This document shows, piece by piece, positions 42,684-48,036 of a DNA stretch of 64,000 nucleotides. A model generated the notes under the pieces. It made no database searches and was not told where the DNA came from. It saw nothing but the letters and a program-made list of their open reading frames with translations. Within the stretch, counting starts at the first letter, position 1, and each line of letters begins with the position of its first letter. The position numbers and the translations under genes are program-made. Where the stretch lies: NCBI GenBank assembly GCA_015689645.1, contig WVSM01000001.1:186001-250000 (forward strand), read 5' to 3'. This DNA comes from Rhodobacterales bacterium HKCCE4037. Lineage in GTDB: Bacteria > Pseudomonadota > Alphaproteobacteria > Rhodobacterales > Rhodobacteraceae.

Positions 42684-47158
<4,475 letters not shown>

Positions 47159-47171
47159 GCCCATAAGATGA

Positions 47172-47219
47172 GAACAAACCGCGTTTGTTCGCATTTGTTC
47201 TCAAAAAGTTCTTTACAAT
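47172..47219 (+). promoter_or_regulatory. LexA-like box and promoter before the 40-aa gene
   Basis: GTTC-TCAAAAA-GTTC at 47197-47211 fits the alphaproteobacterial LexA consensus GTTC-N7-GTTC. Directly after it TACAAT (47214-47219) is a near-perfect -10 element. More GTTC/GAAC half sites lie at 47172, 47187 and 47235. GAACAAAC-CGC-GTTTGTTC (47172-47190) is a perfect 8-bp stem-loop that could also end the recG transcript. Confidence 0.6.
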
Positions 47220-47244
47220 CTTAACGGGACGTGAGAACAAAGCA

Positions 47245-47261
47245 TCAACAAGACGTTAACC
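47245..47261 (+). promoter_or_regulatory. CtrA-like site in the leader of the 40-aa gene
   Basis: TCAA-CAAGACG-TTAACC has the CtrA spacing (N7) with one mismatch in the first half. It lies between the candidate -10 and the ATG at 47281, a position that would favour repression. Confidence 0.4.
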
Positions 47262-47280
47262 AACCCATTCGGAGGTCGCC

Positions 47281-47403
47281 ATGATCCGCCAGACCCGACA
47301 GATCCTCGCCCGTTCGCGCAGCACGCTGATGTACGATCTGGCCGGTGTGGTTGCCTTGGCGGCCATGACCGTCGGCATGTTCTTCATGCCCGGGGTGATC
47401 TGA
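47281..47403 (+). CDS. 40-aa membrane microprotein, possibly SOS-regulated
   Basis: An open frame of 40 codons preceded by CGGAGG six bases upstream of the ATG. The product has a basic N-terminus (MIRQTRQILARSRSTL) and one hydrophobic segment (YDLAGVVALAAMTVGMFFMP), so it should sit in the inner membrane with the N-terminus inside. The leader has a LexA-like box, a -10 element and a CtrA-like site. A strong terminator lies 120 nt downstream. LexA-controlled single-span peptides such as Caulobacter SidA inhibit cell division; a similar role here is only a hypothesis. No family recognised. Confidence 0.65.
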   Translation: MIRQTRQILARSRSTLMYDLAGVVALAAMTVGMFFMPGVI

Positions 47404-47524
47404 CGCCTTACCTGTTTCTGCCTGCGGTCCATTTCGGGTTTGCGATCCGGCGACTTGTCCCCGCCGATCTCTCTGACGACCCCTTCCAGCTCCTTGCCTC
47501 GGAGCACTTCGGATACGCATTCCT

Positions 47525-47564
47525 CCGCCGCCATCCTGCCCTGGATGTGCGGCGGTTTTTTTTT
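47525..47564 (+). terminator. Strong rho-independent terminator
   Basis: CCGCCGC pairs with GCGGCGG, an inner CATCC/GGATG stem extends it with a single bulged T, the loop is TGCCCT, and nine T residues follow (47556-47564). It ends plus-strand transcription from recG and the 40-aa gene before the convergent Fe-S scaffold gene. Confidence 0.9.
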
Positions 47565-47583
47565 ATGTGGAACGGGGGAGCGC

Positions 47584-48036
47584 TCAGGCGCAGGCGGCGC
47601 GTTCGGCTTCGGCCATGGCTTCGGCGGTGGCCTCCAGCGCCAGCAGGATCGAGGCGTGGCGGTTGCGGTAGTCGCGGGCGGGTTCCAGGACTTCGTAGCC
47701 GTCGAAGGGCGCTTCGGGGACGGGGCCGCCGTCTTTCAGCATGGCGCGGAGCGTGTCGCGGGTGGTCTCGATCTCGGCGCGGGTGCGGCCGAGGACGTTT
47801 TGCCCAAGGATTGCTGCGGAGGCCTGGCCGAGGGCGCAGGCCTTCACGTCCTGCGCGAAGCGGGAGATCACGCCGTCGCTGACGTCGAGGTCCACCGTTA
47901 CAGTCGAACCGCAGAGGGGCGCGCGTTTCTTGACGCTGGCCTGGGGCGCTTCGAGACGGCCGCGATGGGGAATGTCCGCTGCCAGTGCGAGGATGCGCTG
48001 GGAGTAGAGCTTGATCAGATCGCTGTCGCTGGCCAT
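47584..48036 (-). CDS. Iron-sulfur cluster assembly scaffold protein (IscU/NifU-N-like)
   Basis: Cytosolic scaffold-like protein of 150 aa. The start SDSDLIKLYSQRILALAADI is followed by KKRAPLCGSTVTVDLDV near 36-52 and VKACALGQASAAILGQNVLG near 64-83, the positions of two conserved cluster-ligand cysteines in the family. The third IscU cysteine near the C-terminus is not at its usual place, although Cys149 is at the very end. It is divergent from hisI with 66 nt between. This diverged type is common in Rhodobacteraceae; its role in cluster assembly is inferred. Confidence 0.75.
   Translation of the reverse strand: MASDSDLIKLYSQRILALAADIPHRGRLEAPQASVKKRAPLCGSTVTVDLDVSDGVISRFAQDVKACALGQASAAILGQNVLGRTRAEIETTRDTLRAMLKDGGPVPEAPFDGYEVLEPARDYRNRHASILLALEATAEAMAEAERAACA

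Follow-up and report, generated by a model that had tools for sequence, protein, structure and literature searches.

The 64-kb window analysed here, the whole 64,000-nucleotide stretch of Rhodobacterales bacterium HKCCE4037 to which all positions refer, carries between recG and the next gene a frame of 40 amino acids (aa) that, judged by comparison with related genomes, is a real, conserved gene. The gene is predicted to encode a single-span membrane microprotein and is very probably repressed by LexA, through two LexA-type boxes of which the inverted box 2 is the firmer and box 1 the less firm. SOS induction of this membrane microprotein is the strongest inference that we draw. An earlier note, made from the letters of this DNA, had proposed a LexA-controlled membrane microprotein; the conserved frame, the position behind recG and the LexA-type operators support the proposal well, whereas the -10 element that went with it was probably misplaced. 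As to what the peptide would do, we favour a delay of cell division in the manner of SidA, a reading by analogy that falls a little short of probable.

A conserved gene behind recG in the Rhodobacteraceae

Read from the letters, the frame has its ATG at 47281 and its stop codon at 47401-47403, and recG stops at 47158 (Table 1). The sequence elements described in the earlier note (the frame, GGAGG, GTTC-TCAAAAA-GTTC, the hydrophobic span and the terminator) are all present. That note had made its case depend on the conservation of frame and box in related genomes, and a search of such genomes found both conserved across the sampled Rhodobacteraceae. With the single 40-aa sequence as query, the genome itself and all 12 relatives drawn from the genus match at E 1.2e-11 or better. 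A profile built from a 22-row alignment matches 350 of 395 Rhodobacteraceae genomes at E<=0.01, belonging to 316 of the 351 genera in the sample; apart from five, the matching genomes have a single match each. A draw at the level of the order gave matches in 144 of 149 genomes at E<=0.1, all drawn genomes being of the same family, and a draw across the class gave seven among 289 genomes: the genome itself, four further Rhodobacteraceae and two from outside the family. These last two matches are weak, lie within longer frames (444 and 547 aa) and were put down to chance; within this class-wide draw of 289 genomes, the microprotein is thus credibly matched only in its own family.

The place of the gene is as constant as its presence. 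Among 146 loci examined in detail, 145 have recG upstream and the microprotein frame downstream, the exception (L175) having neither recG nor the open reading frame (ORF). Part of this set was preselected: from 30 initial loci, seven (L022, L023 and L026-L030) were dropped for having no recG near, and the 23 kept are therefore recG-preselected. In the 123 loci without such preselection, recG is upstream in 122, four of which repeat loci among the 23. Merging of duplicates reduced the 145 loci to 141 distinct ones, to which the counts below refer unless stated otherwise. Eighty regions were hand-picked from the listed profile matches at family and order level, nearly half of them weak matches. 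The gap between recG and the microprotein has a median of 112 nt (range 72-620; 145 loci), the length is 40 aa in 120 of the 145, the start codon is ATG in every one of them and a Shine-Dalgarno-like site precedes it in 141 of 145.

The frame is moreover under purifying selection. In 13 sequences from the genus the ratio of nonsynonymous to synonymous change is low (mean pN/pS 0.24, median dN/dS 0.14), which argues that the peptide matters, and 19, 12 and 37 of the 40 columns vary at codon positions 1, 2 and 3, respectively. These codon statistics rule out an artefact of gene prediction, and the claim that the frame is a real gene is borne out by the profile matches across the family, the synteny with recG and the selection. 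Searches of Pfam, NCBIfam, PHROGs and PADLOC with the 40-aa protein of the window gave no match, and a profile search of PDB found none either. Scattered weak matches in a search of Pfam and NCBIfam with 66 members (best Pfam E 0.0077, to DUF826, for one member) were taken as chance. The single 40-aa query matched no plasmid or phage record; given this result and the fixed synteny, we rejected the idea that the box is part of a mobile element.

Two conserved LexA-type boxes at the probable promoter

The pattern GTTC-N7-GTTC of box 1 occurs once in the window against 1.97 occurrences expected from shuffles, and because this count is no higher than chance, box 1 alone proves nothing (the genome as a whole has 112 occurrences of the pattern and 62 of a reversed control). 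It is the conservation of the pattern, in 139 of the 141 loci, that makes the box significant. Other spacings between two GTTC are found in 0-8 loci, except N6 (126), N17 (124) and N16 (31); the N17 spacing arises where an additional half-site, lying upstream, is paired with the second GTTC of box 1. The second, inverted box, overlooked in the earlier note, is a better LexA match than box 1. Its pattern GAAC-N7-CAAC is present in 124 loci, whereas no alternative spacing between 0 and 20 occurs in more than four; among the 139 loci that have box 1, its GAAC follows box 1 at exactly 38 bp in 128.

The sequence TACAAT had been taken for a -10 element with the box directly before it. The box is conserved, but the adjoining TACAAT looks more like part of a -35 element: its last base is T in just 22 of 128 loci, while a TTKACA (TTTACA in the window; third base G in 19 of the 128) is kept directly 3' of box 1 and 17 nt before GAACAA, and we rejected the -10 reading on this column conservation. 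On account of the same spacing and conservation we read TTTACA as the -35 element, with box 2 probably overlying the -10 element and the start.

The exact pattern of this promoter layout, searched over the genomes of 84,980 species, returned at least 116 stretches. Among the 80 matches listed, recG lies upstream in 80 and the microprotein downstream in 79, the 80th stretch ending inside the microprotein frame; the organisms listed include Ruegeria, Sulfitobacter, Roseovarius, Paracoccus, Rhodobacter, Thioclava and metagenome bins with broader names.

Two other regulators were considered for this region and rejected. A TTAACC half-site, as might be read by CtrA, lies downstream of box 2 in the genus and is not kept across the family, and no TTAA-N7-TTAA was seen by eye. 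At the upstream half-site, TTGTTCACA resembles a DnaA box in some relatives, while the window and others differ (by eye). The palindrome GAACAAACCGCGTTTGTTC, between the recG stop and box 1, was seen by eye in several members of the genus and not in the other genera compared; it could be the stem of a recG terminator or a further pair of LexA half-sites.

Comparison with LexA operators of repair genes

LexA was found in all 20 of the genomes chosen for comparison, and GTTC-N7-GTTC stands upstream of lexA in 20 of 20 and of recA in 20 of 20. From seven repair-gene promoters we compiled a LexA position weight matrix (PWM) of 70 sites (52 distinct; lexA 35, recA 20, dnaE2 11, and one each from uvrA, an imuB-like gene, a uvrD-like gene and a radical-SAM repair gene), none of them from the microprotein locus. 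Of 20 GTTC-N7-GTTC regions from the genome itself, only the four beside repair genes entered the matrix; they adjoin UvrA, a UvrD/PcrA-like helicase, a Y-family (impB/mucB) polymerase and a radical-SAM DNA-repair protein.

Over the 64-kb window the full matrix places box 2 first (18.5) and box 1 second (15.3), the next site scoring 9.6. When each gene was left out in turn, its sites scored medians from 10.3 (uvrA) to 27.1 (imuB-like), with 16.0 for lexA, whose lowest site scored 2.5, and since the left-out genes cover this range, both boxes lie within the usual range of LexA sites. A site scoring at least 10 is found in all 141 orthologous promoters, and two such sites in 134; the controls reach this score in 4 of 141 shuffled promoters (one shuffle each) and in 0 of 141 for both the 3' untranslated regions (3'UTRs) and the recG coding sequence. 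Omission of the dnaE2 and imuB-like sites leaves the boxes first (17.4) and second (13.7) in the window, with at least one site of 10 or more in 141 of 141 promoters and two in 126. A matrix of recA and lexA sites only still ranks box 2 first (17.1). Box 2 also has TGAGAACAAA in common with the imuB-like and dnaE2 operators of the same genome and with the dnaE2 operators of some relatives. In sum, box 2 matches LexA robustly, and box 1 is a probable but weaker match.

Genomes without a profile match

We examined 23 genomes in which the profile found nothing, 20 of the 45 from the family search and three from the order draw. A recG-type match is present in 21 of them, and in 16 of the 19 strong recG loci the region behind recG scores at least 10 with the LexA matrix; in each of these 16 a small hydrophobic ORF, judged by eye, follows the LexA site. 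Several of the boxes are canonical, with T before the second GTTC, and scores such as 29.0, 28.3 and 23.5 are reached. Twenty-one genomes of this set have LexA, and a box of the same type stands before lexA in all of them but G127 and G139 (19 of 21); in G139 no GTTC-N7-GTTC was found before lexA. G064 and G093 (97% complete) have no recG match at E<=1e-20 and no LexA match at E<=0.001.

The predicted membrane peptide

The window protein has a single hydrophobic span (19-residue Kyte-Doolittle maximum 2.02), and 79 of 79 homologues, drawn from the 80 listed loci of the promoter-pattern search, exceed 1.6 with one predicted span; a charged residue after position 20 occurs in only six of them. 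AlphaFold2 models two helices, at residues 2-11 and 13-35, with a mean predicted local distance difference test score (pLDDT) of 85.8 and a predicted template modelling score (pTM) of 0.48, a model that for a 40-residue peptide supports helicity only. From the hydropathy and the modelled helix 13-35, a membrane location is predicted with near certainty. The basic N-terminus that had been adduced in support of the gene is not a feature of the family, the first 20 residues of the 79 homologues having a mean net charge of +0.4. No variation is seen at T15, D19 and G22 in the first, 22-row alignment, nor at D19 and G22 in a second one (A3) of 66 sequences, which 65 of the 79 homologues entered.

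The 3' untranslated region

The earlier note had also pointed to a terminator downstream, and one is present about 120 nt past the stop codon, unlisted by a simple scan (Table 1). A run of five or more T is found in 136 of the 141 loci, at a median of 179 nt past the stop, and is preceded by a stem of at least six pairs in 133 of the 136. The stretch between stop codon and terminator is itself conserved: CTGCCTG occurs in 109 and TGTCCC in 121 of the 141 3'UTRs, against 5 and 17 in shuffles. One hairpin exists in three covarying versions in the genus (GCTCC/GGAGC, GTCCC/GGGAC and GCCCC/GGGGC) and was found by script in 12 of 13 loci. The consensus fold of the genus is closed by the stem TGCGRTCC/GGATaCGCA and contains two hairpins, whose loops are UGUCCC and UGCCUC; compensatory changes affect 8 of its 21 pairs (14 sequences), several pairs being broken in 1-4 of the 14, and 8 of the 31 pairs of a fold that includes the terminator (10 sequences). 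The window transcript does not fold clearly better than its shuffles (z -1.77, 6 of 100 shuffles folding equally well).

Two RNA models of the genus were run on two nearly identical sets of 100 chosen loci. Model R1, which includes the terminator, reaches E<0.001 in 96 of 100 other loci, whereas R2, which omits it, reaches E<0.01 in just 9 of 100, although 47 of the 48 R2 matches at E<=1 lie at or beside the right place. Given the low reach of R2, we do not claim a fold common to the whole family; structure in the 3'UTR is thus supported near the genus and unproven beyond it. Rfam gave sub-threshold matches only, with no family at threshold. A dual-function transcript is possible in view of the conserved 3'UTR. 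Positions 47404-47564 may hold a regulatory RNA derived from the 3'UTR, with UGCCU and UGUCC motifs.

Relation to known systems

The Rhodobacteraceae include many abundant marine and model bacteria. In the open-licence literature on LexA and the SOS response, the Rhodobacteraceae, recG, small proteins and division inhibitors (supplements lying outside its scope), we found nothing on the microprotein gene, no data on LexA binding to it or on its induction by damage, and no described SOS division inhibitor for the family. A microprotein of LexA type that is present almost throughout the family and lies outside the family libraries searched would be a single candidate for a missing checkpoint. 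The SOS regulon of the family would also gain a candidate gene, one with a conserved 3'UTR that calls for an explanation.

SidA of Caulobacter crescentus is a 29-aa inner-membrane protein that blocks division via FtsW (PMC4211646). GTTCN7GTTC is the LexA motif of Caulobacter too, and the deletion of lexA makes Caulobacter filamentous because of sidA (PMC12700426). Our microprotein resembles SidA in being a tiny inner-membrane protein of an alphaproteobacterium under LexA, its membrane location and control being predictions. It differs in its length of 40 aa, its place behind recG and its two LexA-type boxes, and in the class-wide draw of 289 genomes its credible matches lie only within the Rhodobacteraceae; the two are likened by description and not by sequence. 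DidA of the same organism is likewise a damage-induced, small, single-span division inhibitor, but is longer (71 aa), has FtsN as its target and does not depend on the SOS response for its induction (PMC4211646). YneA of Bacillus subtilis is SOS-induced and has a single transmembrane (TM) domain, which binds FtsW; the authors of that work propose that FtsW is a target shared by SOS inhibitors (PMC13396833). YneA needs an extracellular LysM domain, however, whereas the microprotein has no domain beyond its predicted helices. DinQ of Escherichia coli is an SOS-controlled inner-membrane peptide with a single TM segment that depolarises the membrane and leaves filamentation unaffected (PMC3567139). 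It is a type I toxin with an antisense RNA, in contrast to a microprotein that is family-wide, syntenic and nearly always single-copy. The microprotein would fit among the small SOS-controlled membrane proteins, and we do not assign it to the SidA family. A study of D. shibae predicts LexA sites; recG is not mentioned in its main text (PMC6473078).

Proposed mechanism and alternative explanations

In the mechanism that we propose, LexA would occupy operators round the promoter, with the inverted box 2 over the -10 element and start and box 1 probably just upstream of the -35 element. DNA damage would activate RecA, LexA would cleave itself and a short, mono-cistronic messenger RNA (mRNA) would be made. 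The peptide translated from this mRNA, 40 residues long, would have a short helix at its N-terminus and cross the inner membrane once. Most likely the peptide would then delay a late step of division, its span packing against a membrane protein of the divisome (FtsW, FtsI or FtsN), as SidA does on FtsW. The gene would accordingly count as a near-core SOS gene of the Rhodobacteraceae, in an explanation that we put forward, as a whole, tentatively and at slightly less than even confidence. In our judgement, a distribution that is near-universal, nearly always single-copy and syntenic is more in keeping with a checkpoint than with a selfish toxin.

Several observations weigh against this explanation. 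A scan of 46500-48000 for the sigma-70 consensus found no promoter, and GAACAA makes a poor -10 element. The dnaE2 operator was located via the pattern of box 2 itself, which brings some circularity into the matrix. With the matrix of recA and lexA sites only, box 1 scores 8.9 and ranks third in the window, and while 137 of the 141 promoters keep a site of at least 10, just 30 have two. Directly before its second GTTC, box 1 has A where almost every training box has T, and the first half-site of box 2 is GTTG. Three genomes without a profile match (G029, G088 and G139, at loci L284, L283 and L281) have LexA and recG but neither box nor microprotein behind recG. Finally, the conserved residues of the peptide fit any specific membrane interaction equally well. 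The three genomes, as natural losses, could show what the gene is needed for.

TisB of Escherichia coli is a peptide of the same kind as DinQ, and type I toxins are usually patchy or multicopy in their distribution, a typical though not strictly defining trait. That the microprotein is an SOS-induced toxin of this type, which would insert into the membrane, lower its potential and slow the cell without binding to the divisome, seems to us unlikely. The size class and the LexA-type control are as in DinQ, a toxic single-span SOS peptide of the inner membrane (PMC3567139), and the conserved 3'UTR could serve control by RNA. The gene is, however, neither patchy nor multicopy but sits in one inherited place, with a single match in nearly every matching genome; the 40-aa sequence found no plasmid or phage counterpart; charges after residue 20 are few; and T15, D19 and G22 are conserved. 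A simple promoter scan of both strands of 46500-48000 gave no antisense antitoxin RNA, in a scan that missed the gene's own promoter and with no systematic search made. Likewise unlikely is a role as modulator of some other membrane machine, for example the CckA-ChpT-CtrA relay (which links LexA to gene-transfer agents in Rhodobacter), a membrane protease or a sensor. The LexA and CtrA networks are interwoven in the Rhodobacterales (PMC6473078), and in this genome ctrA lies 4.6 kb from the locus; yet the conserved neighbour is recG, and the distance to ctrA is known from this genome alone.

An RNA might instead be the main or second product, a regulatory RNA from the 3'UTR with UGCCU/UGUCC loops to which the peptide would be secondary or complementary. 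The enrichment of CTGCCTG and TGTCCC over shuffles, the compensatory changes and the wide reach of R1 speak for it; the failure of R2 beyond the genus, the unremarkable folding of the window transcript, the broken pairs, the lack of an Rfam family at threshold and the purifying selection on the peptide make it distinctly unlikely. Possibly, peptide and RNA act together, from a dual-function SOS transcript with two LexA operators, a checkpoint microprotein and a structured 3'UTR that serves as regulatory RNA, either released or in cis. This combination we consider somewhat unlikely; if true, one LexA target would control membrane and RNA targets together. Very unlikely, lastly, is that a regulator other than LexA acts at the boxes, and at box 1 in particular; an OmpR-type activator that reads GTTC repeats at 10-11 bp would be an example. 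Three GTTC repeats (N6, N7) do end at the -35 element, in an activator-like layout, and box 1 lacks the T before its second GTTC and scores low with the recA and lexA matrix. Nevertheless, each of the matrices tried ranks box 2 first in the window, this box has TGAGAACAAA in common with the imuB-like and dnaE2 operators, and the diverged genomes carry textbook LexA boxes at the corresponding place.

Neighbouring genes and other boxes in the genome

The neighbours named in the earlier note (ligA, recG and ctrA) are borne out by matches to NCBIfam equivalog models, from which the identities of CtrA, LigA and RecG are taken. The features of the locus are collected in Table 1.

Table 1. Coordinates of the microprotein gene and associated features in the window
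Feature	Position	Strand	Basis
ORF, predicted single-span membrane microprotein, 40 aa (MIRQTRQILARSRSTLMYDLAGVVALAAMTVGMFFMPGVI)	47281..47403	+	profile, start and Shine-Dalgarno site, dN/dS, AlphaFold2
Shine-Dalgarno GGAGG	47271..47275	+	read from sequence
LexA-type box 1 GTTCTCAAAAAGTTC, ends at probable -35	47197..47211	+	GTTC-N7-GTTC in 139/141 loci; PWM 15.3
LexA-type box 2 GAACAAAGCATCAAC, minus-strand GTTG-N7-GTTC	47235..47249	-	GAAC-N7-CAAC in 124/141 loci; PWM 18.5
Probable -35 TTTACA (TTKACA-type in family)	47212..47217	+	column frequencies, 128 loci; 17-nt spacer to GAACAA
Extra GTTC half-site, 10 bp upstream of box 1 (GTTC-N6-GTTC)	47187..47190	+	GTTC-N6-GTTC in 126/141 loci
Palindrome GAACAAACCGCGTTTGTTC between recG stop and box 1	47172..47190	.	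by eye
recG, conserved upstream neighbour	45056..47158	+	NCBIfam RecG equivalog, 1097 bits
Conserved 3'UTR, motifs CTGCCTG (47418), TTGTCCC (47455), TTGCCTC (47494)	47404..47524	+	motif counts, consensus fold
3'UTR hairpin AGCTCC-TTGCCTC-GGAGC	47488..47506	+	three covarying genus versions
Intrinsic terminator CCGCCGCCATCC-TGCCCT-GGATGtGCGGCGG-T9	47525..47564	+	read from sequence; in consensus fold

Elsewhere in the genome, a LexA-like box, GTTCGCTTATTGTTC, lies between a 123-aa helix-turn-helix (Cro/C1) protein and a lipoprotein-like frame of 94 aa for which Pfam gave no match (L228:1584-2366; G000:C23). Another, GTTCTATCTTTGTTCTCA, stands before a stand-alone frame of 127 aa (L244:1130-1558; G000:C33) that matches only the C-terminal end of an error-prone DNA polymerase (NF004225, 951-1039 of 1047) and may be a split-off domain or a remnant.
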